A stretch of 64,000 nt of DNA from Pegea sp. RAD2-039 (Eukaryota; Chordata; Thaliacea; Salpida; Salpidae). How positions within the stretch are numbered: the first letter of the stretch is position 1; each line of letters starts with the position of its first letter. Both the position numbers and the translations under genes were made by a program. Location of the stretch: NCBI GenBank assembly GCA_034620365.1, contig JAQGEQ010000369.1:36510-100509 (forward strand). Direction: 5' to 3'. Positions 1,297 through 59,640 of this stretch are shown piece by piece. The notes beneath the pieces are model-generated. The model was not told the DNA's origin, searched no databases, and saw only the letters and a list, made by a program, of their open reading frames with translations.

Positions 1297-1423
1297 CTTG
1301 ATCCCACAAACTCTAGGTTGTAATGAAGTTATATGAAATGAAAATTACCTTTACATGACCAGACCTCATATAATTTCAATAATAGGAATTTGATACAATT
1401 TTGGAGTTGAAATACTTTTCAAC
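1297..1423 (+). ncRNA. Class 1 Sm-RNA-like cassette A
   Basis: The PSE-like box GATCCCACAAACTCTAGGTT lies within 1297-1320, with a TATA-like ATAT stretch near 1330. The Sm-site-like AATTTTGGAG is at 1397-1406 and is joined to the perfect stem-loop GTTGAAATACTTTTCAAC at 1406-1423 (7-bp stem, loop TACT). The box start is 100 bp from the U-rich site. The reading as a small-RNA gene is inferred from order and spacing only; transcription is not shown, and it may be a relic carried by the duplication. Confidence 0.4.
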
Positions 1424-2280
1424 AAAAATTCATTTAATAAATAATCTATCTGCAAAAAATTATAGAAAAAAAAATTTAGGTTAAAAGTTTAATCCATTAT
1501 TAGAAATATGATACTGAAAATGTGACAGAAAATTTTCTAATATAAAACTTTATTTTCAGTAAAATAAGTATTTCTACTATAAAACATCTTTATAAACTTG
1601 TTTGATACAACTTCTTCCAAATTTTGAATCTAAGAAATTTGAAGCGCATTTTATAATTTTAAAAAATTTTATTATGAAAAATTAAATGTATATACAAATA
1701 TAGTAATAGCTTATGCAAACGAGTATTTAATTTTATTGTTTGTAAATTAATTTGATGTTTAGTTTTTATAATTAAAAAAAAATTAATTGGAATATTAAAA
1801 ATTTTTTAGAAAATCGTCTTATTTAGATAGTGAAAAGCCTGATTCAGCCACTTTTACTTTATATTTTGTTAAATTATCTAACTAAATATGCTTTTTCTCT
1901 GTATTTATTTGCAAATAAACTACAGATAAGACAATTGTAGAAACAGTTCTTAGTAATCCAGAACTAAATTTTATTTACTAATTTACTACATTCTTTCTAT
2001 ATTATATTACTATAGCTTAATTACTTATATTTCACTAATTTTAACGTAAAAAAACATTTGTCACTCTAAAATGAGATGATAGTATAGGTAAAAGTAATTA
2101 AGTTTAACACTACAATATAAAATTTAAATACAACTATTCAAAAGTATTTTTGGGTACTGGACACTACTTTTTAAAAAAGCAACATTTAAAATTATTATTC
2201 AATTTCAATTGACTTTGCTTTAAAAAGTTTCTGTCAATAAAAACTTTACAACTTTTAATTCAAATAAAGATTCAATATCA

Positions 2281-3549
2281 ATATATAATGCTAAATAATG
2301 AAGCTGCATTAGTTTTTATAGTAAATTCTAAATGAAATTTAAATTTTATCTCTTTACAAAAGTTGTTAGATCAAAGTTTTATCAAAATTAAGATCTGATT
2401 TTTTATTAATATTGTAACCAACTTAAATTTAAACAAACCATTAATTTTTTTTTCACAAATCTCCACCATAAAAAAAACTTTTAAAACTTGTTTTTTTTTT
2501 GCAATTTGTTCAAACATTATGTATACTTTACTGATATTGTTATTGAAAAAATTGTTGTTATGATGTTATTCTAAATCTGAAATAGCAATTTTTAATTTTT
2601 TTATTTTAAATGAAAATATAATATTTTCATTAGAAGCAAAACACAAAGCAACTAAGCTAATATAAATAAAGAAGTCTGTAAACAAAAATTGATTTATAAA
2701 ATGTTTAAGAAAGCTTTTATAGTATTTGATTGCTGACTAACATTAAGAAAGAATTTTTCAACAATTTCTTTTATACCCTAGAATAAAATTTCTTAAAACT
2801 TGTTTTACTGAAGTTTACAACTAAAAGAAAATTACAAATATTTATAAAGAAGTTAGTCTAAACTAACAAAGGTTTCAAGTGTAATATTTTACAAATTTGG
2901 ATTAATTGTCCTTTAATTGTAAATTAGTTTTCATTTAAACAAAAACAGAATTAAGCAAAAACGATAAAGTCTGTTGGTTGTTGTCTTAGAAATGTAAACG
3001 AGATAGAAAATTTTAAACTAATTAAAAGATAAATAATTAAATTAAAATGGAAGAGAAGTTTGTTTAAAAAGTTTTTAACTTGTAAGTTATTTAATGAGTA
3101 AACAAATTTTTGATACAAAATGTTTTATTTAAACTTTTACAAAAATACATTGTTTATCAACAACAAATTTATATTAAAATTGTAAAAATAAATTTGTTTA
3201 AACTTGACCCCACAAACTTTAGATTACGACAAAGTGATAAACAATGAAAAATCACAAAAACTTTTCTCGAGAAATCAATGGTTGTTAAAAACCTAATTTG
3301 GAGTGGAAACATTGTTCAACGAAAATTCGTTTAGTAAAGAGGTTAATTAATTTGAGTTTCTATTATGCAAAAAAAATTACATAAAAACAACTTCCTTACA
3401 TTTTTGTACAGATATAACTGATAATGTTACAAAATTTTCAATAAGTTAACCTTCAGTTAATCAAAGATAATTATTTATGGCATCACTAATATCTGTTTCA
3501 TATTCAGTTTTATCTGTAATAAAAATTTCAAAATTATATTAACACGTTT
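2281..3549. repeat. AT-rich mosaic, partly inverted relative to 54.1-54.5 kb
   Basis: There is no coding signal. The part from about 3190 to 3540 recurs inverted at 54110-54480, and 1815-2000 of R1 recurs inverted at 54500-54720. The 54-kb segment is therefore a rearranged mosaic of this area. It contains cassette B (3203-3320). Otherwise only A- and T-runs are seen. Confidence 0.55.
3203..3320 (+). ncRNA. Class 1 Sm-RNA-like cassette B
   Basis: The box is GACCCCACAAACTTTAGATT (within 3203-3226). AATTTGGA lies at 3294-3301, 91 bp from the box start. The stem-loop GTGGAAACATTGTTCAAC (3303-3320) has one mismatch. No clear TATA is seen. It is more eroded than cassette A. Confidence 0.3.
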
Positions 3550-5611
3550 AAGCTTCTAGTTTTAATGTACTTTTTATTATTTATAAACTTTTCTGAAATC
3601 TAGTGTTAGTGGGATCAGGCTCAAACGATTAAATAATGCTGAAATATAAAGATCGATTTTTAAGTTGATAAGAAAATTTGACTATAAATTTATCTTCGTA
3701 GTAAACAAAAGTCGGTTAAGATTATAAATAGATTAAAAGTAAGTTTGTTACGAAGTTTTATTTAATTTAAAGTTACTTTGAATGTTTCAACAGAAATTTA
3801 TTTGTCGCGATTGTAACAAGATGAGGTTTTTAAAAAACTAAGTCAACAGTCATGTGATCTTTTTTTTTGTTTTAAATTGTGAGTATTATAAGTTTTAGAA
3901 ATTCTGTTGGTTTGATCTTCAAAATATTTCTGGAAATAGTTTCAGAAAAGTTTTTTTGAAAAGTAAAAATAAAAACTATTTATTACGAATTGTAATTTCT
4001 TTTTCATAATTAACCGTCTAGCTTTTCAAGCAAATTTTTCCAAACAATCGTCAAAAGATTTCTTTTATTTACATAATGTGAATAAAATTAGGTTATATTT
4101 TTCTATCTTTTTTGGTTTTTATATATTTAATTATTATAAATAAATCTACATTTGACTTCAAGAAATATCAATAAAAAATTACATTTAACTATATATAAAA
4201 TATTCAAAGTGATTTTTACAAATATTAATTTTAAATGTTACTGCATTAAAGTAATAAATAATGAATAACTAACGAATAATTACTGGTTATTTAGTTTAAC
4301 TTTAATTAAACTATTTTTAATTTTAATTTAGGAATTTTTTAACGAAAATTTAATTATTAAACCAGTTGAATAAACTGTTTCTATTTTTGACGAGAAATGA
4401 CATAAAAACTTTAAGTAAAAATTTTTTTTCGTTTTTTTAAACATGATACTTGTAATATGACAGAATATTACTTTCATATAAGTACTTCCAATTAAATAAA
4501 TAAAATGATTTACGGCATCACGAAAAACTGCTTCAAATGTAGTTTTATCTGAAATTTTGTATCATATAATTAAAAATATTTAATTTTATATATTGTTATT
4601 TTAAATTTGTGGTTTTACCAAAGTTTTGAAATTTCTATTGCAACAACAAAAGTTTTTAAATTTTTTAATTTTTATTTCTCTATTTGCAACAATCTTTTTA
4701 ATTACACTTTTTTTATTTTAGCTTAATAAAATCTCCATTTACAAGCTTAATACAATAGTTTAGAGTTTGAATAATTTTAAATTAGTCTTTAGGAACTAAA
4801 AAAAGTAAATTAATTATTTTACTGATATCTGATTTTAAAGCAAACCAATAATACCCTTATCACAATAGTATTTTCAATAAAAATAGAAACGAATTTATAA
4901 GATGAGCAACAATTAACGATACCACAAACATCAGATTTTATGCCGATATTATATAAGTGTATAAATGAAGAGTGAAGCAACAAGCAAAATAAAAATCTCA
5001 TATTTATGGAAGATCCTCATAATTCTTAATGATGCATGTTTGCGTCTGTTTATCAAACAAGTTTTATTCATCGGAAGAATTGACACAATTTTCATCTTTC
5101 TTAAGATTATTCGATATTTAACAATTCCGTTTGCTAGGAGAAATTTTCTTCTAAAATTTATTCATTTTTTATTTTCGGCAATTCAATACAATTTTTTATA
5201 CAGATAAAAATTAAGTTAAATTATTTCTACAAATAACAAAAGTTTGTATTTCAGTTACTCAATCAAATTAATGATGTAATTAGCTTTAGTTGTTGTTTCA
5301 TTCATTCATCAAAATTCTAACAATTCTATTGAAACTGAAAATTTTATGCGTAATTACAGATACTACGTCAAGGGAAAATTTTTAACAGAAAACTCAATAA
5401 AATCATCTTAATTATTTGTTGGCTTGACACATAAGCAAAATGTAAAAAATATTTCAATCAGTAATTAGGGTCTTAGCTGCTTAAACATTTAGAGTTAAAC
5501 TAATTTTCAACAAAACTTCATTTATTAAATAAGTTGAATATCTTGAGTTTTTATTCTGTACAAAAGTTGACATACAACAAATTTATACTTAGAGGTTTAT
5601 TTCATTGATGT
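3550..5611 (+). repeat. Inverted repeat arm (partner 31372-32870, minus)
   Basis: The reverse complement of 31372-32870 matches this segment over most of its length. The present arm has about 575 bp extra (about 4112-4688), absent from the distal arm and so either an insertion here or a deletion there. The distal arm joins the equivalent of 5611 directly to the equivalent of 5968, a 356-bp deletion. The short open frames near 4819-5207 are shared by both arms as degraded sequence and are not genes. Confidence 0.75.
4914..5046 (+). ncRNA. Class 2 Sm-RNA-like cassette a
   Basis: The box contains GATACCACAAACATCAGATT (4919-4938). ATTATATAAG (4949-4958) is TATA-like, and the hairpin GATGCA-TGTT-TGCGTC (5031-5046) has one G:T pair. 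An eroded inverted copy lies at 31928-32040. No clear AATTTGG precedes the hairpin, so this is probably a relic. Confidence 0.28.
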
Positions 5612-6912: not shown

Positions 6913-7039
6913 CTTGATCCCACAAACTCTAGGTTGTAATGAAGTTATAAGAAATGAAAATTACATATACATGACCAGATATCATGTAATATCGAGTAAA
7001 ATTATCTGATCCAATTATGGAGTTGAAATACTTTTCAAC
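6913..7039 (+). ncRNA. Class 1 Sm-RNA-like cassette C
   Basis: Duplicate of cassette A in R1 copy b. The box GATCCCACAAACTCTAGGTT and the stem-loop GTTGAAATACTTTTCAAC (7022-7039) are unchanged. The U-rich site has become CAATTATGGAG. The terminal stem is preserved while the flanks drift. Confidence 0.35.
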
Positions 7040-8615: not shown

Positions 8616-8753
8616 CTGAAGCCACAAATATAAGGTTATGCAGCCTATATTTAATATTTAAAAAATTCCTTTTTCACTGAAATACCAAATTCATTTATAA
8701 GTGCAATATTTGGAAGGTGCACTTTTGCCTCTGTTTATCAACTAAATATTTTT
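8616..8753 (+). ncRNA. Class 2 Sm-RNA-like cassette b
   Basis: The box GAAGCCACAAATATAAGGTT (from 8618) is followed by TATATTTAAT (about 8647), AATATTTGG (about 8705) and the hairpin AGGTGCA-CTTT-TGCCTCT (8715-8732; one mismatch, one G:T). A T5 run at about 8749 could end a Pol III transcript. The same cassette recurs at 24.68, 35.85 and 56.08 kb. Confidence 0.38.
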
Positions 8754-9575: not shown

Positions 9576-9694
9576 CTTGATCTCATACACTTCAGATTGC
9601 AACAACGTTTATAAGAAATGAAAAGTAAATTAAAACTCAATCTTTCGTAAAGGATTGCAAAGTGTTTTAATTTGGAGCTAAAGTACTTTACAAC
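9576..9694 (+). ncRNA. Class 1 Sm-RNA-like cassette D
   Basis: The box core is GATCTCATACACTTCAGATT, TATA-like TTTATAAG follows near 9608, and a first stem-loop CAATCTTTCGTAAAGGATTG spans 9638-9657. AATTTGGAG (9669-9677) is 93 bp from the box start. It is followed by a terminal inverted repeat around TAAAGTACTTTA. Two stem-loops flanking an Sm-like site is the layout of nematode SmY RNAs. Confidence 0.42.
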
Positions 9695-9828
9695 AAAACT
9701 TTAGATAATAAACAAGTTAATTATAGTTAATATTAGTTAAAAATACGATATTAATGTTATATATAACAGTATCTTTATAACATTAATATTAACAATAACT
9801 TTATCGATTGAATAAAGCCATCGAAAAA

Positions 9829-9955
9829 TTTACCGATACCACAAACATAAGATTGAATGAAGATAATATATAACCGTAAAGCTTACGAAGAAGTTATATC
9901 ATTATATTACTTATCGGGATAACAATACTAATTTGGAAGATGCAGTTTTGCATGT
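9829..9955 (+). ncRNA. Class 2 Sm-RNA-like cassette c
   Basis: The box GATACCACAAACATAAGATT (9835-9854) is followed by AATATATAACC (TATA-like, about 9866), then a CCGTAAAGCTTACG inverted repeat, AATTTGG (9930-9936) and AGATGCA-GTTT-TGCATGT (9938-9955). No T-run follows closely. Confidence 0.4.
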
Positions 9956-10125: not shown

Positions 10126-10252
10126 CTTGATCCCATACACTACAGATTGCAACAACGTTTATAAGAAATGAAAAGTAAAATAAAACTCAATCTTTCGTAA
10201 AGGATTGCAAAGTTTGTAAATTTGGAGTTAAATTCAAAGTTTTACTTTACAA
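10126..10252 (+). ncRNA. Class 1 Sm-RNA-like cassette E
   Basis: Tandem sister of cassette D. It has box GATCCCATACACTACAGATT, TTTATAAG, stem-loop CAATCTTTCGTAAAGGATTG (10188-10207) and AATTTGGAG (10219-10227), also 93 bp from the box start. The distal arm is AAAGTTTTACTTT. Confidence 0.4.
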
Positions 10253-10439
10253 GAAACTTTAAATAATGAATATGTTTGATAACTTGAGTTATTATTCATC
10301 ACAAAATATTTTTGTAAACATGTTATTAGTAATATGACAGATTTTTTACTAATTGAAAACTTTTCATTCAAAAAAACTAGTATTTTGCTTTTTATTATTA
10401 TTTAATCGAACTCATTAAATATCAGCTCGGCAATTTTTC

Positions 10440-11260
10440 TTTTTCTATCTTATGGATAGTAGAAATAAGTTAAAAAAAAAAACTTTACAAAAAAATATTT
10501 CAAAATTTTCCTTTTCCGCTACTAGGCGCAAGAGGAAATAATTTTCTTGACCCGATGTTTAATGATTTCAATTGAATGATATTAAAAAGTAATAAAGAAA
10601 TAGAAATATTGCTTCTAAATTTTATTCATCTGAAATATAAGTAGAAATACTAATTGTGTTAAATAAAAGTTTTTAGATTTGAAAACATTCTGTTGTATTA
10701 TAATTCTGTTATTTGTTAAATGCAATTTTAAAGGATAGAAATTTTAAGAGTAATTTTGAAAATAGTTGAACGACATAAGTTTATTTTTTGTGAACTAGAA
10801 TCCATTTCTTGTCTTTTTAAAAAAAGGAGATATTTGTATGAAAACGCTTTTTCTAACTAAAGTATATACAATTTAATGAAAACAAGACAAACAGATTACT
10901 ACAAGTAAAATAATTCAATTTTTCAAACAAAAGCATAACTTTAAATCTTCTGAAACTTGTAGAGAATTTCTGATTAACTTTATCAAAAAAAAGTTGATAA
11001 ATATTGTTGACGTCGAAAAAGCGTTCAACTATTGAGAAACATTAAGAACCATTTTTGCAAAGAGAAAGTTTTTGTTTTAAAAATATTAGTGTTTTTACTT
11101 ATATTTCACAATGAAAAAAAAAATAATTAAATTTTAAAACTAATTTTATATATTTTTTTTTGATGAGTTATTTTTGTATATACAATTTATTTGAAAATTG
11201 AAAAAATGAAAATTATTTGTCAACAAAAGTTTGTTCAATAAAATTATAAGAAAATATTCT
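10440..11260. other. AT-rich stretch without genes
   Basis: The only notable item is the CTCF-like motif at 10516. The remainder is A/T-run sequence with no open frame, tRNA box or cassette that I can recognise. Confidence 0.6.
10516..10529 (+). promoter_or_regulatory. CTCF-like motif 4
   Basis: CCGCTACTAGGCGC, with the CCGCTA and GGCGC ends conserved and the centre different. It belongs to the second flank type (preceded by a T-run, followed by an AGA-rich stretch), also seen at 23137 and 34302. Confidence 0.3.
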
Positions 11261-11740
11261 CCTAAACTTGATTCAAAAACTCTAGATTGCAACAAACTGA
11301 TAAGAAATGAAAAGTAAAAAAATATTTCAATCAGTATTTAAGGTTTTTAACTGATTTGAAATTTGTTGATAAATTACTTATCAATAAAACTTCATTTATT
11401 AAGTAAGTTCATTATCTTAAGTTTTCATTCTATACAAAAGTTACATAAAATTTAGCCTAGCAGTTTATTTCATGGTTGTAAACTTTTTAATACAATTGTG
11501 TTTATTAGTTACGAATAAAAACTTTTCACTGAGCAAAATAAGTATTTCTACTCAGAATTCTAGGTAAAATAGAGAGTTCAGCAGCAAAATTAATTTTTAT
11601 TATTAGTAAATTACAAATTACACGCTTATAATACCATGTAATTTGTTTCTGCAATTATTAATCGAAATAAAGTTAAAGCAATCTCTTAATCAAGAAATTG
11701 AATTATGTAATTTAACCAATGAAGGTTGCTGTAAATGGTA
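11260..11740 (+). repeat. Diverged copy of the R1 junction region (about 5420-5860)
   Basis: Clear but old similarity, for example CTCAGAATTCTAGGTAAAAT against the sequence near 5690. A box-like element GATTCAAAAACTCTAGATTG lies near 11270 without a usable downstream site. Confidence 0.55.
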
Positions 11741-12240: not shown

Positions 12241-12690
12241 AATTAGGTTTCTAAATGAAATAAAAATTCAATTAACAACAATTGTTCAACTAATCATCAA
12301 TTTTGTTTGGAAATTTGTCAACTGCTATTGGCAGTTTCTAAATTATAAGTATTTTAAACCTTTCGATTGCAGAATTTTTTTAAGAGAATAAAATCGGAAT
12401 ATGTAAAAATGGTTTAAGTCTGTTGTTTGTGGTGCTAGAAATCTAAACGAGTTTAACATTTTTTAAGAAAGTACAATATAATCGGTGTACAAAATTACTG
12501 CATGTAATACTAAAACATGGTAAATTCTTTTGCTTTTAATAAAGCAAATTGTTTTAAGTTAGTTTGTAATCTCAGACAATGCCAATTGAAAAAATGTTAC
12601 TAAAGATATACATTTTACTAAACTTAAGAAAATTTGCAGCTAACATTAGAAAGTATGTTTATTATGGTAACTAAATTTTATATAAATTCT
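12240..12690 (+). repeat. Direct repeat with 29450-29900
   Basis: About 450 bp shared in the same orientation. Landmarks are GTGCTAGAAATCTAAACGAG, ATCTCAGACAATGCCAATTG and CAAAATTACTGCATGTAATA. No coding frame spans it in either copy. Confidence 0.75.
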
Positions 12691-12699
12691 GATATTATT

Positions 12700-14340: not shown

Positions 14341-14461
14341 GCTGATGCCACAAACTCTAGATTACGATAAAGAAATAAATAAGGATATTTAAATATAAAA
14401 ACTATAACGTGTACTCAACTGTTGTTGTATATACCATTTTGGAGTTGAAATACTTTTCAAC
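14341..14461 (+). ncRNA. Class 1 Sm-RNA-like cassette J
   Basis: The box GATGCCACAAACTCTAGATT starts at 14343, CATTTTGGAG lies near 14436, and the perfect stem-loop GTTGAAATACTTTTCAAC is at 14444-14461. The flanks differ from R1, yet the terminal stem is identical to cassettes A and C. A further box without a usable Sm-like site is at about 14690 (AATCCTACAAACACTAGATT). Confidence 0.4.
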
Positions 14462-18992: not shown

Positions 18993-19118
18993 TAACGATA
19001 CCACAAACGTAAGATTGAATATAGTTAATATATAACCGTATAGATTTCGAATAAATAAGATCCGTACGATTTGGTACGCACACAATCTAATAATTTTAGA
19101 AGATGCACCTTTGCATCT
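18993..19118 (+). ncRNA. Class 2 Sm-RNA-like cassette d
   Basis: The box GATACCACAAACGTAAGATT (from 18997) is followed by AATATATAACC and AATTTTAGA (about 19092), then the perfect hairpin AGATGCA-CCTT-TGCATCT (19101-19118). The flanks differ from cassettes c and h. Confidence 0.4.
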
Positions 19119-21678: not shown

Positions 21679-21797
21679 CTTGATCCCACAAACACTAGAT
21701 TTCAGAAAAGTTTATAAATAATAAAAAGTACAGTGAAACTGGACACTATAAACGTGTTAATAAAATTTTGGTATTTGGAGTTGAATTACTTTTCAAC
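21679..21797 (+). ncRNA. Class 1 Sm-RNA-like cassette G
   Basis: The box GATCCCACAAACACTAGATT (from 21682) is followed by GTTTATAAATA (21710-21720, TATA-like). Two U-rich candidates follow (AATTTTGG about 21764; ATTTGGAG just before the stem), then GTTGAATTACTTTTCAAC (21780-21797, 6-bp stem). It is among the best-preserved class 1 copies. Confidence 0.43.
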
Positions 21798-22699: not shown

Positions 22700-22826
22700 A
22701 GATGCAAGCGTGCACCTTCCAAATAAACAGGTAGACGAAGAACTAGTGGCTAACCGTTTTCACTTCCCCGTAAGCTTTACGGCTATATATTATCTTCATT
22801 CATTCTTTTGTTTGTGATATTGGTAA
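22700..22826 (-). ncRNA. Class 2 Sm-RNA-like cassette e
   Basis: Read on the minus strand: AATATCACAAACAAAAGAAT box, AATATATAGCC, CCGTAAAGCTTACGG inverted repeat, ATTTGGAAGG and the hairpin AGGTGCA-CGCT-TGCATCT (one mismatch). Paralogous to cassette j at 33.9 kb. Confidence 0.35.
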
Positions 22827-24681: not shown

Positions 24682-24819
24682 CTGAAGCCACAGACATAAG
24701 GTTATACAGCTTATATTTAATTTTTAGAAAAATCCTTTTTCACTGAAATACCAAATTCATTTAAAAGTGCAATATTTGGAAGGTGCACTTTTGCCTCTTT
24801 TTATCAACTAAATATTTTT
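24682..24819 (+). ncRNA. Class 2 Sm-RNA-like cassette f
   Basis: The box GAAGCCACAGACATAAGGTT is followed by TATATTTAAT, AATATTTGG and AGGTGCA-CTTT-TGCCTCT (24781-24798). T5 runs lie at the hairpin foot and near 24815. Confidence 0.36.
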
Positions 24820-26529: not shown

Positions 26530-26676
26530 TACCGATACCACAAACCTAAGATTGAATGAAAATAATATGTAACTGTAAAGCTTACGGAGAAATGAAATCG
26601 TTTTATAACGTAGTATGACTTTAAGACACTAATTTGGAAGATGCAGTTTTGCATCTGGTTGTCAAGTAAGTTTTTT
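26530..26676 (+). ncRNA. Class 2 Sm-RNA-like cassette g
   Basis: The box GATACCACAAACCTAAGATT (from about 26534) is followed by AATATGTAAC, a CTGTAAAGCTTACGG inverted repeat and AATTTGG (26631-26637, 101 bp from the cassette start). The perfect hairpin AGATGCA-GTTT-TGCATCT (26639-26656) and a T6 run (26671-26676), 15 bp after the hairpin, complete it. The open frames here (26529-26780 minus, 26696-26890 plus) are incidental. Confidence 0.45.
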
Positions 26677-27569: not shown

Positions 27570-27688
27570 GTAGAAAAGTATTTCAACTCAAAATTATGTA
27601 AACGATTTGTTATCAGGAAAAAATGATTGAAAGATATAGTTTTCATTACTTATAAACGTTGTTGCCATCTAAAGTTTGTGGGATCAAG
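27570..27688 (-). ncRNA. Class 1 Sm-RNA-like cassette O
   Basis: Minus-strand box GATCCCACAAACTTTAGATG, then AATTTTGAG and GTTGAAATACTTTTCTAC (27570-27587; one mismatch). The flanks are otherwise unique, so the box and terminal stem are conserved beyond the rest. Confidence 0.35.
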
Positions 27689-29027: not shown

Positions 29028-29171
29028 TACCGATACCACAAACATAAGATTGAATGAAGATAATATATAAACGTAAAGCTTACGGATAAGTTATATCATT
29101 TTATTACTCATCTAGATTAAAGATAATAATTTGGAAGATGCACTCTTGCATCTGATTATCAAATGTTTTTT
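29028..29171 (+). ncRNA. Class 2 Sm-RNA-like cassette h (best preserved)
   Basis: All elements are present in order. The box GATACCACAAACATAAGATT starts about 29032, AATATATAA lies at about 29062-29070 and the inverted repeat CGTAAAGCTTACG at 29072-29084. AATTTGG (29128-29134) is 100 bp from the cassette start. Then come the perfect hairpin AGATGCA-CTCT-TGCATCT (29136-29153) and a T6 run at 29166-29171. A start about 25-30 bp after the TATA-like box would give an RNA of about 75 nt. The upstream box, TATA and T-run together resemble a type 3 Pol III (U6-like) unit. The Sm-like site instead resembles Pol II snRNAs. Which polymerase would act is open. Confidence 0.5.
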
Positions 29172-32808: not shown

Positions 32809-32927
32809 CTTGATCCCACAAACACTAGATTTCAGAAACGTTTATAAATAATAAAAAGTACACTGAAACTGGATGCTATAAACGTGTTTATAAAATTTTG
32901 GTATTTGGAGTTGAATTACTTTTCAAC
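32809..32927 (+). ncRNA. Class 1 Sm-RNA-like cassette H
   Basis: Duplicate of G, with box, TTTATAAATA and terminal stem (32910-32927) all identical in sequence. Differences fall between these elements. Confidence 0.42.
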
Positions 32928-33864: not shown

Positions 33865-33990
33865 AGATGCAAGCGTGCATCTTTCAAATAAATAGGTAGA
33901 AGGAGAATCAGTGGCTAATCGTTTCCACTTCCCCGTAAGCTTTACGGTTAGATATTATCTTCATTCAATCTTATGTTTGTGGTATCAGTA
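33865..33990 (-). ncRNA. Class 2 Sm-RNA-like cassette j
   Basis: Minus strand: GATACCACAAACATAAGATT box, CCGTAAAGCTTACGG inverted repeat, ATTTGAAAG and the perfect hairpin AGATGCA-CGCT-TGCATCT (33865-33882). The duplicate at 22.7 kb has a mismatch in this stem; here pairing is complete. Confidence 0.4.
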
Positions 33991-35847: not shown

Positions 35848-35964
35848 CTGAAGCCACAGACATAAGGTTATACAGCTTATATTTAATTTTTAGAAAAATC
35901 CTTTTTCACTGAAATACCAAATTCATTTATAAGTGCAATATTTGGAAGGTGCACTTTTGCCTCT
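35848..35964 (+). ncRNA. Class 2 Sm-RNA-like cassette k
   Basis: SD1 copy of f. The hairpin AGGTGCA-CTTT-TGCCTCT is at 35947-35964, AATATTTGG about 89 bp from the box start, and a T5 run begins at the hairpin foot. Confidence 0.36.
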
Positions 35965-36503
35965 TTTTATCAATTAAATATTTTTCATAAGTTAGAAATA
36001 CAGAGATTGTATTTCCTACAAAATAAAATTTAGTTAAGTCACATCAGCAAATAATCTACATTTAATTTCACCATTAAATATCATGAAGTTTGTTAAAGTT
36101 GTAAATTAATTCTGAGGAATACAAAAGTTCAAATTCGTTTAATAGTTCAAAAGACAAATAGTTCAGTGTAAACGATTAATCGTAATTAAATAAATCGTTA
36201 TAAAGCAAAAATATAAACACAAATTTAACAAATATAAATTGTATATATAAAATTCGAGCAAATGTTTAATAAAATAAATTTTAACAGTTAAAGAATATAT
36301 TTTTCAATAGTTAAAACCAAATGTAATTTTGATAATAAGAATAGTGTACGCAGGTTAAATTAATTCTTTCAAAATAGTTAAAAACCCATTAATTTTAACT
36401 TTTTGCTTCGAACGTTTGCGTTCTCTAGAAAATATAATATTTTAGCTATTAATAAATATCTAATAATTTGATTTTCTCTCAACTTAAAAGTAATTCGTTT
36501 AAA

Positions 36504-36617
36504 CTTGACTTCCACAAACTCTAGATTAAAACGAAACTATAAATACTGGCAAAGTCGGATACTATCCAATTGCTTACGAATCAAGATGATATTTTTGGAG
36601 TTGAAATACTTTTCAAC
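36504..36617 (+). ncRNA. Class 1 Sm-RNA-like cassette I
   Basis: The box GACTTCCACAAACTCTAGAT is followed by ACTATAAATA (TATA-like), ATTTTTGGAG (36591-36600, 87 bp from the box start) and the perfect stem-loop GTTGAAATACTTTTCAAC (36600-36617). It has the longest U-run of the class and the closest match to an Sm site (AU4-6G). Confidence 0.45.
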
Positions 36618-40053: not shown

Positions 40054-40135
40054 GGTAGCGTGGCCGAGCGGTCTAAGGCGCTGGTTTAAGGCACCAGTCA
40101 TTTCGATGGCGTGGGTTCGAATCCCACCGCTGCCA
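40054..40135 (+). tRNA. tRNA-Leu (AAG)
   Basis: 82 nt, class II tRNA. The acceptor stem GGTAGCG/CGCTGCC pairs fully (one T:G) with discriminator A. The anticodon stem CTGGT/ACCAG encloses loop TTAAGGC, so the anticodon is AAG (reads CUU and, as inosine, CUC). The variable arm CAT-TTCG-ATG pairs. The A box TGGCCGAGCGG and B box GGTTCGAATCC are intact, and a T7 run at 40139-40145 is the Pol III terminator. There is no intron, and the 3' CCA is not encoded, as expected in animals. It looks functional. Confidence 0.97.
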
Positions 40136-40138
40136 AAC

Positions 40139-40145
40139 TTTTTTT
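40139..40145 (+). terminator. Pol III T7 terminator of tRNA-Leu
   Basis: Seven T starting 4 bp after the discriminator base. Confidence 0.85.
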
Positions 40146-40626
40146 CCCAATAACTAGTTAGAAACATAAATGGAAAGTATAAGAAAAAATAAAAAAAACT
40201 TTAAGAAAACGAAATTAATTTAACCCAAAATTTGATTCAATATTTTTAATCTAAAGTTAAATTTTAACAACTAATGTTTTATTTTTAGCAACTATTATCG
40301 AAAGTTAAGTAAAATGATATTCATAAATTTGTTGTTAAAAATTTTAGTTTTCAAATACTTTCCATTATTCAAATAAAAATATGAAAGAAAGTTTATTATA
40401 CGAAAATTGTTCTTTGAAATTTTATTACAAAATATTTTGTAATTGAACAAAATTTTAAATTTTAAATATACTTTTAGCACCAGTAAGCGAGAATAAAAAC
40501 AATCAACTTTACTTTTTTTTTAGAATTTATTTGCATAAACCAATTTAGAATATAGAAAAAAGAATTACTTTTAAATGAAATAACTTCTTTAAGAAATTTA
40601 AAGAAAATTTATTACGAGATTAGAAG

Positions 40627-40735
40627 ATGCAAAACTCTGAGCTGAAGCCAGAGTTGGAGCCCCGTAGGCAGTTTATGACTGTACTCAGTGTCACCTTGGT
40701 CACCTCTGCGATGCTAGCTTGGCGCAATTAATGTT
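40627..40735. other. GC-rich island of unknown nature, possible structured RNA
   Basis: About 105 bp close to half G+C inside AT-rich DNA, between two tRNA genes. On the plus strand AACTCTGAGCTGAAGCCAGA starts an inverted repeat (AACTCTG with CAGAGTT, 7 bp, 9-nt loop), and CAGT-TTATG-ACTG forms a second hairpin. CACCTTGG-type and GCTAGC palindromic pieces follow. On the minus strand the first hairpin would be 3'-terminal and followed by T4. No A/B box, reading frame or known RNA matches convincingly. It could be a SINE body, a snoRNA/snRNA-like gene or a fragment of one. Confidence 0.4.
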
Positions 40736-40873
40736 TGCAATTTAGTTTGAAAACTTGTTCTAAGCATTTTGCTAATATTTTTAGAATCTCTTTTTTAGTA
40801 AAAAAGTTTAGTATTTTTCTTCTTAGAAAATATTATACTAGATTTTTATTTATTCAGGTATATACTATCGTTT

Positions 40874-40945
40874 ACTTTTGAAGCGCAGCGGAAGCGTGCT
40901 GGGCCCATAACCCAGAGGTCGATGGATCGAAACCATCCTCTGCTA
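40874..40945 (+). pseudogene. tRNA-iMet (CAT) with destroyed 5' acceptor strand
   Basis: From 40883 onward the sequence equals the conserved animal initiator tRNA as I know it. It keeps D arm GCGCAGCGGAAGC, anticodon arm CTGGG-CCCATAA-CCCAG (CAT), the initiator T arm with GATCGAAA, and 3' acceptor CTCTGCT plus A. The nine bases before it are ACTTTTGAA instead of AGCAGAGTG, so nearly all acceptor pairs are lost and the A box starts AAGC rather than TGGC. Only 5 bp (TATGC) separate it from tRNA-His, with no T-run between. The perfect body implies recent damage, by replacement or deletion at the 5' edge. Probably non-functional. Confidence 0.85.
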
Positions 40946-40950
40946 TATGC

Positions 40951-41022
40951 GCTGTAATCGTATAGTGGTTAGTACTTCACGTTGTGGCCGTGACAACCCA
41001 GGTTCGAATCCTGGTTACAGCA
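40951..41022 (+). tRNA. tRNA-His (GTG)
   Basis: 72 nt. The acceptor stem GCTGTAA/TTACAGC is complete with discriminator A. The anticodon stem TCACG/CGTGA has loop TTGTGGC (GTG), and the T arm CCAGG-TTCGAAT-CCTGG is intact. The D arm ATCGTATAGTGG is typical of eukaryotic tRNA-His, where G-1 is added after transcription. A T8 terminator follows at 41025-41032. If the upstream iMet body is transcribed at all, it would read through into this gene. Confidence 0.96.
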
Positions 41023-41024
41023 TA

Positions 41025-41032
41025 TTTTTTTT
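41025..41032 (+). terminator. Pol III T8 terminator of tRNA-His
   Basis: Eight T beginning 3 bp after the tRNA end. Confidence 0.85.
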
Positions 41033-41135
41033 ATTTTAAGTTTATCTTTTCTCCTTACTTTTCCATTGTATCTTCTACTACAGTCTGTTTCTATCCATCA
41101 AAAAATATATGTTTCATTAAAACTAAAACGATTTA

Positions 41136-41160
41136 TGCTGTAACCAGGGTTCAAACTCTT
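41136..41160 (-). pseudogene. Inverted 3' fragment of tRNA-His
   Basis: On the minus strand it ends TTTGAACCCTGGTTACAGCA, close to the tRNA-His 3' end (TTCGAATCCTGGTTACAGCA). It lies 114 bp from the intact gene in opposite orientation. Only the T-arm/acceptor part is present. Confidence 0.65.
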
Positions 41161-41199
41161 AGGTTATTTAACAACGTTTTTACTCCCTTCAAATATGAT

Positions 41200-41830
41200 T
41201 AATTTGAATTAAAATAATTAGTTGATTTTAACAGAATAAACACAAAAGAAATTACCTGAAAAAAGTACCTTGCGCTACGAGAAGTTCATTTGTATTTTGT
41301 AAAATTTTGTAAGAAATCACTTTCAATATAAACTTCAAACATTTTTCAATTACAAAACGCTTATGGTAAGTTTTAAAAAGTGTACTAGAAGTGAAAATAT
41401 GTTTCTATTTTATTAAAAAAAAAGTTTTTCAGGAAAACCATAAACTTTGGTAAAGTGTTCGAAGTAAAAATCATACTTTGTCATTTGGTTGATAAAATCT
41501 TATTCTATTTATATATTTCTTATTAAAATAAAGTTACAAAAAGTGAAATCTAAATAAATGATAATTGATATAAAGTGATACTTTTCAGAATAAATTTTTT
41601 ATTTGTTTATTTATTTTATTTTTGTTTTTATTTTATTGTATTTAACGCATGTCTGCAGATTGAAAATTATTAATCTCTTATTGCGAGAAAGAAGCAACAT
41701 GACTCAAGAAATATAATGAAAAGATAGAAAGTCTCACAGTTTACGAAACGTAACGCAGACAAATAAGTACACTGTAGAAGCATAAGTGTATATAACTTTT
41801 AAATAAAAAATATTAATTTGTTTCACTGCA
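41200..41830. other. AT-rich gap within the tRNA cluster
   Basis: No upstream exon could be convincingly linked to the exon at 41832. The interval 41640-41790 is somewhat less AT-rich but has no long frame. Confidence 0.4.
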
Positions 41831-41831
41831 G

Positions 41832-41917
41832 CCGATGTACATCGAATATCGGATGAAGAAGACCCCCTGGACATAAAGGAATGGATCCACACTTTTGTTG
41901 ACATGGCAACTGAATGA
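41832..41917 (+). CDS. Possible terminal coding exon, unknown protein
   Basis: After a good 3' splice signal (polypyrimidine stretch ending TTTCACTGCAG at 41831), one frame reads 27 residues (DVHRISDEEDPLDIKEWIHT, then FVDMATE) to TGA at 41915-41917. The composition (acidic, Trp, few Lys/Asn/Ile) is unlike random AT-rich frames here. A possible poly(A) signal AATAAA follows at 42059-42064. I do not recognise the protein and cannot find its upstream exons, so it may be an orphan exon or gene fragment. The minus strand is also open from 42051 to 41734 (106 codons with stop), with a charged stretch RKDADDSNKGKFQLL near its start. Only one of the two can readily be real in the overlap. Confidence 0.35.
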
Positions 41918-42058
41918 TGGATAATTATCAAATGAAATTGTTTTTCATCGAAAACATGCTCAGCTTTGCTCCTGGTCGATTTGTCTGTGAGGAGTTGGAA
42001 CTTCCCCTTGTTTGAGTCGTCAGCATCCTTTCTTATTAAGATCGTTGTTCCTTAGGAG

Positions 42059-42064
42059 AATAAA
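42059..42064 (+). promoter_or_regulatory. Possible poly(A) signal AATAAA
   Basis: AATAAA 142 bp after the TGA of the putative exon. The motif is common by chance in this AT-rich DNA, so support comes only from the context. Confidence 0.25.
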
Positions 42065-42138
42065 ATGCTGTTAAACAAAATTCTAATCTTTGTCTAAAAA
42101 TCATTCGTTAGATAGAGCTAATTATTAAATTTCACAAC

Positions 42139-42220
42139 GGTAGCGTGGCCGAGCGGTCTAAGGCACTGGTTTAAGGCACCAGTTATTTCGATGGCGTGGG
42201 TTCGAATCCCACCGCTGCGA
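42139..42220 (+). tRNA. tRNA-Leu (AAG), second copy with a broken first pair
   Basis: 82 nt and nearly identical to the gene at 40054. It differs by G26 to A, one base in the variable arm (C to T, now a T:G pair) and C72 to G, which turns the first acceptor pair into G:G. A G1:G72 clash could impair 5'/3' processing or charging. The A and B boxes are intact, and only a T4 run (42227-42230) is available as terminator. The downstream flank matches that of the first copy (TAACTAGTTA), so it arose by a local duplication of about 2.1 kb offset. Confidence 0.88.
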
Positions 42221-46939: not shown

Positions 46940-47290
46940 ATAAAAAATGCATTTTCATAATAAATAGGCTCGGTCAAAGTGTTTCGAGTAGATCTATTTT
47001 TCTTAAACTAATGAAGCCTCATAAATATTTCTTAACTAAACAGTTTTATGTGTCAAGCCAAAATCAAAAGTAATTTGTTTTGATTTTTTTTTCATTAATA
47101 AATAAATGCCGGGCATTGTGGCATACGTTTGTAATTTGAACTTATTCTGTACGCCACAAACTTAAGATTGAAACAACTTTATAAATACTGATGAAACCAT
47201 TAGCATTTCGAGGTCCAATAAGTGATATATCTTTGTAGAATACATTTTGGAGTTGAATAAATTTCAACAAATAATACTTTATCATTAATG
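46940..47290 (+). repeat. Direct repeat with 50400-50760
   Basis: Shared landmarks are TAAATAGGCT(C/T)GGTCAAAGTG and ATGCCGGGCAT, and both copies end in a class 1 cassette. ATGCCGGGCAT is itself a short inverted repeat. Confidence 0.75.
47147..47268 (+). ncRNA. Class 1 Sm-RNA-like cassette L
   Basis: The box GTACGCCACAAACTTAAGAT is followed by ACTTTATAAATA (47176-47187, TATA-like), CATTTTGGAG (about 47243) and GTTGAATAAATTTCAAC (47252-47268; 6-bp stem, loop TAAAT). The stem's inner pairs and loop differ from cassette A while pairing is retained. Confidence 0.42.
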
Positions 47291-48795: not shown

Positions 48796-48909
48796 GAAGT
48801 GTTGAACACTCCAAATTGTAAATGCCTTTCGGCGGTATTTCTGGTGTGGAAGGTCGAACAGAATCATCATACTAATCATGAATGTTTACTCTAATGTTTG
48901 TGGGTTGTA
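48796..48909 (-). ncRNA. Class 3 Sm-RNA-like cassette, copy 1
   Basis: On the minus strand the box ACAACCCACAAACATTAGAG (start 48909) is followed by a stem AAAT-ACC-GCC-GAAA-GGC-ATTT (GNRA loop, 48840-48820). AATTTGGAG (48817-48809) is 92 bp from the box start. The terminal hairpin GGAGTG-TTCAA-CACTTC ends near 48796. About 130 bp here match copy 2 far better than the surrounding repeat does, including the GC-rich GACCTTCCACACCAGAAATA. Two stem-loops around an Sm-like site resemble SmY or SL-type RNAs. This is the strongest structured-RNA candidate together with its partner. Confidence 0.5.
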
Positions 48910-50596: not shown

Positions 50597-50723
50597 TCGG
50601 TACGCCTTAAACTTTATACTGAAACAACTTTACAAATAATGATTAAATCATTTAAAATTTTCATTTCGATACAAATAGAATCAGTATGATTAGAATACTT
50701 TTTGGAGTTGAATAAATTTCAAC
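50597..50723 (+). ncRNA. Class 1 Sm-RNA-like cassette M
   Basis: Duplicate of L. The box has decayed to GTACGCCTTAAACTTTATAC, but CTTTTTGGAG and GTTGAATAAATTTCAAC (50707-50723) are fully retained. Confidence 0.33.
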
Positions 50724-50759
50724 AAATAATAAAATAATATTAATGTTGACGTGGGCAGT

Positions 50760-54283: not shown

Positions 54284-54399
54284 GTTGAACAATATTTCAA
54301 CTCCAAATTAGGTTTCAAAAAAGCATTTAATATTAGACTGATTTTTTTTTAATTTCCTCTTTTATGACTTTGTCGTAATCTAGAGTTTGTATGGTCAAG
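54284..54399 (-). ncRNA. Class 1 Sm-RNA-like cassette N
   Basis: Minus strand: GACCATACAAACTCTAGATT box, AATTTGGAG (54309-54301, 90 bp from the box start) and GTTGAAATATTGTTCAAC (6-bp stem). Inverted relative of cassette B; here the stem pairs completely whereas B has a mismatch. Confidence 0.37.
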
Positions 54400-55516: not shown

Positions 55517-55539
55517 TTCAGACGAATTCTTTCTTAAAT

Positions 55540-56035: not shown

Positions 56036-56039
56036 ATCT

Positions 56040-56985
56040 TTTGAATATCATTTTAAATGATTAAAGTATACCTAATTTTCGATAAAGCAACAAACAAAAG
56101 GTCTTATGCAGCTTATATATAACATTTAAAAAATCCTTTTTCACTGAAATATCAAATCCATTTTTGAGTGCAATATTTGGAAGATGCACTTTTGCATCTG
56201 TTTATCAACTAAGTACTTTTCATAAGTAAGAAATACAGAGAATGTATTTTCTTTAAAATAAAATTTAGTTAGATCTCATCATCAAATAATCTACATTTAA
56301 TTTCACCATTAAATATCTTGAAGTTTGTTAAAATTGTAAATTAACTCTGAGGAATACAAAAGTTCCTAGTTCAGTGTAAACAGTTAATCGTAATTAAATA
56401 AATCGTAATACAGCAACTATAAACATAAATTTAACAAATATAAATTGTATATATAACATTCGGGCTAATTTTTACTAAAATGAATTTTAACTGTTAAAGA
56501 ATATATTTTTCAATAGTTAAAACCAAATGTAGTTTTGATAATATGAATATTGTATGCAGGTTAAATTAATTCTATAAAATTAGTTAAAAACATATTAAAT
56601 TTTACTTTTGCTTTTATCGTTTGCGTTCTCTAGCAAATAGAATATCTTGGCTTAGAACAAATATCTAGAACATTAATAGTCTCTGGATAGATTACTTCAC
56701 AGATTTGTTTGATATGCAAATTATTTTGAAGATCAAACGAAAATCATTTTTGAGTTTTATAGTAATCTCATTTTTAAAAACAAAAAGTCACATAGCTTTT
56801 GATTTAATTTTTTATTGTCAGTACGATTGATCATTTTTAATTTAAATCATCGAAGTAGAATAAACCAAATTCTAAATTAAATAAAACTTGGTAAGAAAAA
56901 TTGAACTAATTTTGTTTGTATTATAATAAATTTATAAGAACTTTTCTTATCAACTTTAAATTCAAACTTTCTATTTGAAACTCAA
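56040..56985 (+). repeat. Repeat R2, partial copy d
   Basis: Direct copy of about 8600-9520 that keeps cassette l. It ends near the sequence where the 9.5-kb copy enters cassette D. Confidence 0.75.
56081..56220 (+). ncRNA. Class 2 Sm-RNA-like cassette l
   Basis: The box has changed to GATAAAGCAACAAACAAAAG. TATATATAAC, AATATTTGG (about 56172) and a perfect hairpin AGATGCA-CTTT-TGCATCT (56182-56199) follow, with T4 at 56217. The R2 paralogues at 8.7, 24.8 and 35.9 kb have a mismatch in this stem. Confidence 0.4.
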
Positions 56986-56989
56986 ATTC

Positions 56990-57812
56990 TATTGTGCTAG
57001 ATCTTTAATTTGAAGTCGACTAAATGTCGATATAACCATTACTAATGTATCAAAAAATGTTAGTCTGTAATTCATAAATTTGTATCTGATAGATTCTCTT
57101 TTGTTTTATAATAATCTTTAACTTTAGTTATTTGAAAGTGTAATTTTATCAAGCTAAAACTTCATTATTATCAACAACAATCTTATTTGATATAACCAAT
57201 TAAGTGTATCTGTGAATGACAGAAAGAAATCAAAATTAAGATTTATTAAAGAAAGAATAGAACTACTTTAAAAGTAAAAGTAAAATACAATCAATTCTAA
57301 ATCAAATCAAACTTTATAAAACAAACTTGAATAAGAAGATGAGCAAAGTGAATTTAGAAGTTTAATTTTCAAATTTATCAAAATTACTTTGCTAAGAATG
57401 AATAAAAAATTGAAATATTTATTTTATAAATAATAATCTTAAAATTTTCTTATTAATTTGTAATAATATAAAAAAAATTAAAATATTATTTTAATTTACA
57501 AAATAATTTTAACAAAAACGAATAAAAAATTTTTAATTTTTACTCTTTTTGTAATCTACAGTAGAAAAACAAATTTAAATAAGCTATTTTAGGTTAAAAT
57601 TATTATTTTTATGGTTTTGATAAAATCCTTTTCCAAAATTTATTATCCTGCGCAAAATTAAACTAATAAATAATAAAACTAATTAAATAAATGGAAAACA
57701 TCATTCAGTTTATATTTATATTTTGTATAAATTTACAAATTTATAAATTTATATTATTTATCCAAATTATAAAAATATTAATATTAAAAATATTGTTTTA
57801 TTTAAAGAAAGC
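56990..57812. other. AT-rich stretch before the coiled-coil frame
   Basis: No cassette, exon or clear repeat partner. A near-palindrome ATGGTATTTAATACCAT lies at 57813-57829, exactly at the left edge of the coiled-coil repeat. Confidence 0.45.
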
Positions 57813-57823
57813 ATGGTATTTAA

Positions 57824-58541
57824 TACCATCAAAGAGAAATGATGCTGCGTCAACAAGAAGAAGAAAATCTTCGATTACAAGAAGAAAAACGCCTTCAACA
57901 AGAAGAAAAGCGTCGTCAACAAGAAGAAAAACGTTGTCAAAAAGAAGAAAAACGCCATCAACAAGAAGAAAAACGTTGTCAACAAGAAGAAAAACGTTGT
58001 CAACATGAAGAAAATAGACTTCGTAAGCAGGAACAGCAAGAAAGACTTCAACGAGAAAGAGAAGAACAGGAGAGAATAAAGCGTCTAGCTGAATATCAGC
58101 GAATGCAACAAGCGTCAGCAAATTACCACCAAAGAGAAATTATGCTTCGTCAACAAGAACAAGAAAATCTTCGATTACAAGAAGAAAACGCCTTCAGCAA
58201 GAAGAAAAACGTGGCCAACAGGAAGAAAAACGCCTTCAGCAAGAAGAAAAACGTCGCCAACAAGAAGAAAATAGACTTCGTAAGCAGGAACAGCAAGAAA
58301 GACTTCAACGAGAAAGAGAAGAACAGGAGAGAATAAAGCGTCTAGCTGAATATCAGCGAATGCAACAAGTGTCAGCAAATTACCACCAAAGAGAAATTAT
58401 GCTTCGTCAACAAGAACAAGAAAATCTTCGATTACAAGAAGAAAAACGCCTTCAACAAGAAGAAAAACGTGGCCAACAGGAAGAAAAACGCCTTCAGCAA
58501 GAAGAAAAACGTCGTCAACAAGAAGAAAATAGACTTGATTA
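57824..58541 (+). pseudogene. Frameshifted Glu/Gln/Arg-rich coiled-coil gene fragment
   Basis: Three tandem units start at TAC CAC CAA AGA GAA (57824, 58124, 58381). Each begins YHQRE, then MLRQQEQENLRLQEEKR, then a run of 7-residue blocks of the type QQEEKRR (21-bp repeats). Units 1 and 2 continue with RLRKQEQQERLQREREEQER and KRLAEYQRMQQ. The sequence predicts a highly charged, continuous coiled coil, trichohyalin- or caldesmon-like in composition only. A missing A in the run at 58185-58188 (four A where the other units have five) shifts the frame, so the first frame ends at 58336; unit 3 is open again in the original register. An in-frame TAA at 57821 precedes unit 1. Unit 3 breaks off at 58533, where repeat R3 begins and supplies the TAA. 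I see no promoter or splice signal. It is probably a captured exon fragment of an unidentified gene. Confidence 0.7.
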
Positions 58542-58544
58542 ACA

Positions 58545-59640
58545 AATCTAATTTTCTGCTGCGTTTTTTGTCGTTTAGTTCATATTTCAACGTAAGTTTA
58601 AATCAACAAAAACAAAATAGTTTAATCACAGAAAATAACTGTTGAAAAATTCTGTTTCAACAAATTTATTTTTTAGTTAAAATTCTTCTTACGATAACAC
58701 TTTTGATTAAATACGAAAATAAGTTTAGATTTTAACGAAATCAAAACAAGTTGTTTGCGAAATGTTTACAACCCACAAACATTAGAGTAAATATTCATGA
58801 TTAGTATGATGATTCTGTTCGACCTTCCACACAAGAAATACCGCCGAAAGGCATTTACAATTTGGAGTGTTGAACATTTTTCGACATGCTGTTTACATTA
58901 GCAAAAAATTGTTATGAAAAGCAACTGCTACCGTATAGCAGTTGAAATACTTTTCAGTTATTGTTTCAATTGCATTTATTATTAGCACTAGATTTATTAA
59001 TTTTATTTGCAGTAATACGTTTTTAAAATTTTACATTTCTTTTTTATACACAAACAGTTAATATAGATCCAAAACGTTTTGTAAATTTAATCTAAATCTA
59101 TTAAAACTTTTAAGTAAACTAATTCTATTAAAAAAAGTAAAAGTTTCGAATGCTTGAATACTACATTATTTAAAATCTTAAATGTGACTAAAATATTTAT
59201 GATTAAAATGTCGACGTTCAAATAAAAACAATTAACTTTATTTTTGACAAGACTTTTGGAAAAATCTTTGTATATCATAAAAGTTATTATGGTAGCGTTA
59301 AGTGAAAACAAAAAGGATTACTTCTTTATACTACTAGTAGCATGATGGCATCAATACAACGAAAAAAGTAACAATTTGTAAATATTTAAAATCTCAGTCT
59401 ACATATTTGCTTACTTACGACAGAATTATTCAGAGTTTAACAAGCAAAAGAAAGACACAAAATATGAAAGAAATATACAAGTCCACAGCATTCTTCATAT
59501 CGTTATATATCGGAGATCTTTTCGTTAAATGCAACTGACAGCATCAGTTTTCAAATTTAAAGTAAAATTAAAAGCTATACAAGCAACAGTTTGTTAATCT
59601 GGTATAAAATTGAATGCCTTATATGACAACATACTTTCTT
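58545..59640 (-). repeat. Repeat R3, inverted copy
   Basis: Reverse complement of 47800-49160. It starts within a few bases of the coiled-coil frame's stop codon. Confidence 0.78.
58768..58882 (+). ncRNA. Class 3 Sm-RNA-like cassette, copy 2
   Basis: The box ACAACCCACAAACATTAGAG is at 58768-58787. The stem AAAT-ACC-GCC-GAAA-GGC-ATTT precedes AATTTGGAG (58859-58867, 91 bp from the box start). The terminal stem has partly decayed (TGTTGAACA). The upstream box, GNRA stem and Sm-like site are identical to copy 1. A further hairpin CAACTGCTA/TAGCAGTTG lies at 58922-58944. Confidence 0.47.

Follow-up and report, generated by a model that had tools for sequence, protein, structure and literature searches.

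A genome-wide family of candidate Sm-class RNA genes with snRNA-type promoters and variable 5′ segments in the salp Pegea sp. RAD2-039

Sm-class RNAs are usually few in kind and highly conserved. U7 small nuclear RNA (snRNA) has an unstructured 5′ antisense part, an Sm-type site and a 3′ hairpin, and the SmY and spliced-leader (SL) RNAs of nematodes are short, are driven by a proximal sequence element (PSE) and carry an Sm site before a 3′ stem-loop, with SmY having a conserved 5′ stem-loop ahead of that site. Here, we analyzed a stretch of 64,000 nucleotides from Pegea sp. RAD2-039 (the window; C136:36510-100509 in our contig numbering), in which an initial annotation had described about 30 snRNA- or SmY-like cassettes, each consisting of a promoter-like box followed by an Sm-type site and a short stem-loop. 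For related systems, published accounts give U7 a length of about 60 nt (PMC7026596), derive the promoter motif of nematode PIWI-interacting RNAs (piRNAs) from the snRNA motif of the SNAP complex (SNAPc) (PMC6436959), and describe the HSURs of herpesvirus saimiri as non-spliceosomal Sm-class RNAs that bind messenger RNAs or microRNAs (PMC13158664, PMC6763288).

The intact cassettes are probably complete RNA polymerase II (Pol II) genes for Sm-class RNAs, members of a birth-and-death family in which many copies have diversified, possibly guide-like 5′ ends. This reading draws on properties that can be read from the DNA itself, namely the identity of the PSE, the U1/U2-type spacing, the compensated hairpins, the copy number and, in the families compared, turnover of the 5′ part beyond the divergence of its flanks. 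Beyond what the initial annotation described, most classes seem to combine a constant frame with a replaceable 5′ part.

Copy number, promoter and hairpin of the cassettes

The box CCACAAAC occurs 20 times in the window versus 0.81 expected, with 4 as the largest count in a shuffled sequence. A joint model requiring the box, a TTT-type Sm site at 78-108 bp and an abutting stem identified 24 loci in the window versus 0-3 in 20 dinucleotide shuffles, and about 19 of the 24 are convincing. The loci at 11273, 25649, 27874, 39357 and 44576, with a weak box and a non-GGA site in the joint scan, may be chance matches or relics, and further copies at 3210, 8622, 9839, 10133, 24688, 27681 and 35854 have imperfect stems or boxes, so that the count of about 30 stands only if relics are included. 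The family reaches far outside the window. In the whole genome (105.7 Mb, 387 contigs), the strict pattern CCACAAAC-N2-4-AGATT-N70-90-TTTGGA produced 227 matches versus 0 in the reversed control, a box with two TTTGGA sites being counted twice (e.g., C64:14401), while the CCACAAAC-AGATT box alone produced 467 versus 9 and an AAACT version of the box with TTTTGGA produced 14 versus 0. The combination of motifs is thus far commoner than in the controls, as the initial annotation anticipated. Within the window, 8 places fit the strict pattern and 24 are found by the wider scan, so that the number of cassettes in the genome may, by rough extrapolation, be in the high hundreds. For detailed reading, 91 unique cassettes and 40 variable-part representatives were used, after removal of L036 (the same place as L035), of ten short loci replaced by longer ones and of exact duplicates.

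To compare promoters, we used the snRNA genes of the species, for which Rfam models matched 19 U2, 15 U6 and 19 U1 copies in the genome and two U5 genes were present in 20 loci scanned. The U1, U2 and U6 RNAs have an animal-like appearance. The promoters of 12 U2, 10 U6 and 12 U1 loci (nine distinct U1 genes) and of both U5 genes carry CCACAAAC or a near variant (CCGCAAAC/T, CCACAAAT, TAACAAAC), mostly followed by AAACTT-like sequence, at 54-57 bp from the RNA start in U1, U2 and U5 and 62-63 bp in U6. The 3′ half of the box is usually AGATT in cassettes and AAACT in spliceosomal snRNA genes, and one U1 copy (C29:1081018) has an AGATT-type box at C29:1080963, 55 bp upstream. Judged by this match, the cassette box is the species' own PSE, which upholds the proposed relation to the snRNA promoters. 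Box positions 2-7, the A at 12 and the T at 16 are invariant in the 40 representatives, for which the box was itself a selection criterion. A CRE-like (cyclic AMP response element) GACGTCA is found a short distance before the PSE in U1 genes (L055-L059, L061-L063), a U5 gene (L020) and U6 genes (L017, L018), and was not seen by eye upstream of the cassettes inspected.

A TATA-like element was present in 86 of the 91 unique cassettes (at +26 in 41, +28 in 26 and +30 in 10) and fell between +24 and +30 in 83, compared with +26 or +28 in U1, U2 and U5 examples and +32 or +33 in U6. TTTTT occurs within the predicted RNA of 36 of the 91. The U1/U2/U5-like TATA position together with these internal T-runs favors Pol II over RNA polymerase III (Pol III). 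The PSE is held in common with U1 and U2 at an equal distance from the start, which in the cassettes is a predicted one, in keeping with Pol II genes of the snRNA type. It is very improbable that the cassettes encode short Pol III RNAs from a U6-type promoter instead of Sm RNAs; a PSE with a TATA element is the layout of U6 in this species too, but the spacing between them, with TATA mostly at +26 to +30, is not that of U6. No clear fixed motif was found at the predicted start (+57). Position +64 (zero-based from the box start) is A or T in 39 of the 40 representatives and C in one, with no G.

The Sm-like site reads A-U3-5-(G/A)GA, and the A before the U-run, which was not demanded by the search, is present in 90 of 91 cassettes; the run has three U's in 48, four in 24 and five in 19. 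In the 91 cassettes, 82-106 bp separate the box start from the initial T of the Sm TTT, a wider range than the 87-101 bp given before. In the inspected U1 copies (L055-L066), the Sm region is AATTTCTTAC, which differs from the usual site, of AATTTGTGG type.

As in Sm-class RNAs, the site precedes a 3′ stem-loop. At 79 sites picked by box and TTTGGA only, a Watson-Crick stem of at least 6 bp directly follows TTTGGA in 58, compared with 1 of 163 TTTGGA sites taken as controls from other parts of this DNA; at a minimum of 5 bp, the counts are 59 of 79 and 14 of 163. In 44 unique Sm-hairpin sequences, all six outer pairs form in 36 and at least five in every one, the mean is 5.82 pairs versus 4.39 when the 5′ arms are permuted, and three or more kinds of standard pair occur at each of the six stem positions. 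Pairs were tallied with a script; a MAFFT alignment of the hairpins misplaced the 3′ arms because loop lengths differ. A regional family on C92 and C134 contains AACTGA/TCAGTT, AATTGA/TCAGTT (with a G-U pair) and AATTGA/TCAATT, a stepwise compensatory series. Such compensated stems are the strongest evidence in the sequence for a hairpin that works as RNA. The three unrelated stem classes named by the initial annotation do not exhaust the family, as AACTGA/TCAGTT, ACCGTT/AACGGT, GACTGAA/TTCAGTC and GCCCGT/ACGGGT stems exist too.

From +57 to the end of the hairpin, the predicted RNA would measure 48-73 nt (median 56), close to the 60-75 nt proposed earlier, with 25-49 nt between the predicted start and the Sm TTT. 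The 5′ part, unlike that of SmY with its stem-loop, does not surpass shuffled sequence in predicted folding (mean z -0.27 in the 40 representatives). At the gathering score, Rfam models matched only tRNAs in the window, and 15 cassette loci matched no SmY, SL or snRNA family even at E values up to 5. SL RNAs, likewise short, PSE-driven and Sm-class, offer another explanation, in which the 5′ part would be a diversified leader exon followed by the Sm site and hairpin, and variable spliced leaders do occur in some animals. We consider this highly unlikely, as no 5′ exon with a fixed GT donor was found: there is no conserved GT between start and Sm site, GT is absent altogether in 26 of 91 cassettes, and it is missing from every member in 7 of the 40 variable-part clusters. 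The rotifer-type leader, the one known leader searched for, was absent at up to three mismatches. The 5′ end of U6 in this species appears unlike that of nematodes, which weakens the parallel with both SmY and SL RNAs.

Turnover of the 5′ segment

The 5′ parts of the 91 unique cassettes fall into 40 clusters at 75% identity, and their divergence was compared with that of the surrounding DNA in 163 cassette pairs with alignable flanks. At flank identities of 0.80-0.85 (47 pairs), 0.75-0.80 (24 pairs) and 0.68-0.75 (5 pairs), identity of the 5′ part is 0.553, 0.542 and 0.556, where random identity is 0.475. At flank 0.80-0.85, the PSE stands at 0.995 and the hairpin at 0.994; both are at 0.99 at flank 0.75-0.80, and at 0.95 and 0.89, respectively, at 0.68-0.75. 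In closer pairs, identity of the 5′ part is 0.925 at flank ≥0.95 (20 pairs), 0.917 at 0.90-0.95 (42 pairs) and 0.863 at 0.85-0.90 (25 pairs). The drop from about 0.86 to about 0.55 between flank bins indicates that the change is not gradual, and the 5′ part looks as if it were replaced in blocks. Counting disjoint pairs from any cluster, the 5′ part is below flank identity in 19 of 27.

A search based on flanks found 206 paralog sites, with the exact box in 166 and a TTT(G/A)GA site in 193. At flank identities of 0.8-0.9 and 0.7-0.8, these paralogs have hairpins at 0.986 and 0.998, PSEs at 0.992 and 0.949 and 5′ parts at 0.596 and 0.522; at 0.5-0.7, the hairpin is at 0.914 and the PSE at 0.887. 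They lie mostly in DNA fetched by motif, so that the contrast of box and hairpin with the flanks is partly selected.

A conserved promoter beside a replaced 5′ part is also what a piRNA-like system, parallel to nematode 21U loci, would present, with the variable 5′ part as an Argonaute-loaded product and the Sm site and hairpin serving the 3′ end or stability of the precursor. Nematode piRNA loci as portrayed in PMC6436959 are similar in having one PSE-related promoter for each of many short single units, a location in AT-rich and gene-poor clusters, and a variable product. Against this, the conserved A-U3-5-GGA and the compensated hairpin indicate a stable Sm ribonucleoprotein, and the predicted start lacks a clear fixed motif. 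We know of no Sm site and hairpin element at nematode piRNA loci, and regard this explanation as unlikely.

The GGAGTG-stem class (class 3), with copies at 48903 and 58773 in the window, behaves differently from the other classes. Its 5′ part is 97% identical between these two copies, whose flanks are 79-87% identical, and was found at 21 places on nine contigs (up to three mismatches; 12 exact; control 0), a count of the 5′ part alone, the full cassette having been read only at the two window places. This recurrence, which includes C261, C267, C273, C274, C275 and C286, suggests further cassette clusters. A class-3 copy matched no SmY, SL or snRNA family in Rfam at E values up to 5, and the class has the look of a conventional conserved RNA that carries a 5′ domain specific to it.

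Several results weigh against the reading of the cassettes as Sm-class genes with replaceable 5′ ends. At flank identities of at least 0.85, the 5′ part is barely below its flanks (0.925 vs 0.966, 0.917 vs 0.933 and 0.863 vs 0.875), and the pairs at 0.75-0.85 come from few families, with C102/C247 accounting for 6 of 10 disjoint pairs. The letters of the box and TTTGGA fetched most loci, which in part predetermines the conservation of PSE and TTTGGA, and a hairpin was required as well. Identity of the 9-nt Sm segment falls to 0.80, 0.78 and 0.87 at flank 0.80-0.85, 0.75-0.80 and 0.68-0.75, its loss in the first of these bins lying chiefly in the bases before TTT, and 48 of 91 Sm-like sites have just three U's where the textbook site is AU4-6G. 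Class 3 has a conserved 5′ part and a less conserved hairpin (76% between the window copies). No complementary target for the variable parts was found in about 130 kb of unmasked genome DNA, a search of low power. The earliest flank comparisons were dominated by one regional family, and 17 cluster-pair rows and a list of 10 pairs were chosen for unlike variable parts and are not taken as proof.

In that same DNA, the longest antisense matches of the 40 variable parts averaged 8.25 versus 8.10 in shuffles, no clear excess, and the longest sense matches 9.5 versus 8.3, a slight excess to which relatives of the cassettes left unmasked may contribute. When matched to U1, U2, U5 and U6 in antisense, the variable parts averaged 5.75-5.93 versus 5.57-5.70 for shuffled sequence.

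Some copies, moreover, are plainly decayed in box or stem. These, together with the large segmental duplications in the window, would suit a family made up mostly of decaying relics of one old snRNA-like gene, spread by segmental duplication and with few or no active members. The stems, however, stay paired through compensatory change, and the flank-found paralogs keep box and hairpin better than flanks within the selection noted above, making it improbable that relics are the main explanation. We retain the reading of a family of Sm-class RNA genes accompanied by relics, which bears out the initial annotation as far as sequence can go.

Cassettes and setting in the window

The window has a GC content of 21-29% and is pervaded by large direct and inverted segmental duplications (offsets near 11166, 16066 and 5616 bp), on which cassettes are carried. 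An origin as a short interspersed element or other retroposed copy was ruled out, as similarity between copies continues through hundreds of bases of flanking DNA and the RNA does not include its promoter. The copy at 9576, previously listed among the best, is a degenerate relic with box TCATACAC (9583 below). Coordinates below are those of the window.

1304..1423 (+): cassette with GTTGAAA/TTTCAAC stem; PSE at 1304, Sm TTTTGGA, hairpin
3210..3330 (+): cassette with exact box, Sm site at +87, imperfect stem; end approximate
6920..7039 (+): paralog of 1304; Sm site changed to TTATGGA, stem intact
8622..8734 (+): degenerate copy, box CCACAAAT, stem AGGTG/TGCCT; end approximate
9583..9700 (+): degenerate relic, box TCATACAC; end approximate
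9839..9955 (+): AGATGCA-class cassette with broken outer stem pairs; end approximate
10133..10255 (+): degenerate copy, box CCATACAC, tandem relative of 9583; end approximate
12320..12432 (-): cassette, AACTGC/GCAGTT stem, TTTAGA site
14348..14461 (+): cassette, GTTGAAA stem
19001..19118 (+): cassette, AGATGCA/TGCATCT stem
21686..21797 (+): cassette, GTTGAA/TTCAAC stem
22700..22817 (-): cassette, AGGTGCA/TGCATCT stem (G-U), weakened box TCACAAAC
24688..24800 (+): degenerate copy, box CCACAGAC, imperfect stem; end approximate
26538..26656 (+): cassette, AGATGCA/TGCATCT stem
27570..27681 (-): cassette, exact box, TTTTGA site, GTTGAAA stem with one mismatch; end approximate
29036..29153 (+): cassette, AGATGCA/TGCATCT stem; PSE, TATATA near +28, variable part, Sm AATTTGGA at +94, hairpin
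32816..32927 (+): cassette, GTTGAA stem, segmental duplicate of 21686
33865..33982 (-): cassette, AGATGCA stem, TTTGAA site, segmental duplicate of 22817
35854..35966 (+): degenerate copy, box CCACAGAC, imperfect stem; end approximate
36512..36617 (+): cassette, GTTGAAA stem, shortest spacing (+82)
47154..47268 (+): cassette, GTTGAA/TTCAAC stem
48798..48903 (-): class-3 cassette, conserved 5′ part, stem GGAGTG/CACTTC
50605..50723 (+): copy of 47154 with decayed box CCTTAAAC, Sm site and stem retained
54284..54392 (-): cassette, weak box ATACAAAC, GTTGAA stem retained
56088..56199 (+): cassette, weak box CAACAAAC, AGATGCA stem
58773..58886 (+): class-3 cassette, conserved 5′ part, hairpin altered relative to 48903
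59533..59651 (-): weak cassette, box TCACAAAC, TTTGAA site, AACTGAT/GTCAGTT stem

Among open reading frames (ORFs) of at least 110 amino acids, none stands out in the window beyond a tRNA island, a reverse-transcriptase fragment and repeat-rich ORFs. The island, richer in GC, lies at 40054-42220 (+) and contains two tRNA-Leu(AAG) genes, one tRNA-His(GTG) gene and a partial tRNA-like match, while an RVT_1 (reverse-transcriptase) ORF fragment of an element resembling non-LTR (non-long-terminal-repeat) elements lies at 62592-63725 (-). Q/E/K/R-rich ORFs made of 21-bp repeats occupy 57824-58542 (+), just upstream of the class-3 cassette at 58773, and a similar repeat ORF lies near a GTTGAA cassette in another locus (L029). 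With regard to the host, searches detected no COX1, no cuticle-collagen domain of nematode type, no arthropod-type cuticle domain and, at 20 sampled contig ends, no exact telomere arrays; both cuticle searches ran without a positive control and do not establish absence.

Proposed mechanism and relation to known systems

In the mechanism we propose, SNAPc would bind the PSE, as expected because the box matches the U1/U2 promoters, and the TATA-like element at about +26 to +30 would set the start, with Pol II beginning at about +56/57. The product, about 48-73 nt, would comprise an unstructured 5′ segment of about 25-49 nt, the Sm site A-U3-5-(G/A)GA and a 3′ hairpin of 6-7 bp. An Sm ring would assemble on A-U3-5-GGA, a step suggested by the conservation of site and hairpin; the hairpin would shield the 3′ end, and the free 5′ part would offer base pairing to partners. 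Given that the 5′ segment differs between members while promoter and hairpin are kept, the simplest reading is a base-pairing guide as in U7, and the U7-like layout together with the turnover makes the segment possibly a guide. Birth and death would have enlarged the family to several hundred members, many of which lie in AT-rich clusters shaped by segmental duplication.

The likeness to U7 lies in a nearly equal length and in the order of unstructured 5′ part, Sm-type site and 3′ hairpin. U7, however, is a single conserved RNA whose Sm site is specialized for Lsm10/11, whereas the cassettes number hundreds with many 5′ parts and a more canonical site, A-U3-5-GGA. With the 5′ parts in 40 clusters, at most a few cassettes could be U7. 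The species' own U1, U2 and U5 genes share the PSE, the TATA position and the distance from PSE to start with the cassettes, but the cassette RNA would be much shorter, with one hairpin, a variable 5′ part and no Rfam family. For the suggested SmY/SL parallel, the order of Sm site and stem-loop holds, but the cassettes have no consistent 5′ stem-loop, fixed GT donor or Rfam match, and they are far more numerous. HSURs are likewise Sm-class RNAs outside the spliceosome, but they are viral and few. A comparable family was not found in the open-licence literature searched.

The closest evolutionary parallel is found in the nematode piRNA loci. As described in PMC6436959, 21U loci share with the cassettes many single-unit promoters related to the snRNA SNAPc motif and a variable product; the cassettes differ in having a full PSE with TATA, an Sm site and a compensated hairpin. 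We tentatively raise the possibility, which we hold to be less probable than the gene-family reading itself, that the salp genome encodes a repertoire of several hundred natural guide RNAs. Each would come from a miniature snRNA gene in which promoter, Sm core and hairpin stay constant and the 5′ segment undergoes block replacement at a higher rate than the divergence of the surrounding DNA. They would have arisen independently of nematodes, out of the same snRNA machinery from which the nematode piRNA loci evolved. If so, they would represent a novel means by which an animal encodes large numbers of sequence-specific RNAs and an independent case of the transition from snRNA to small-RNA locus described for nematode piRNAs.

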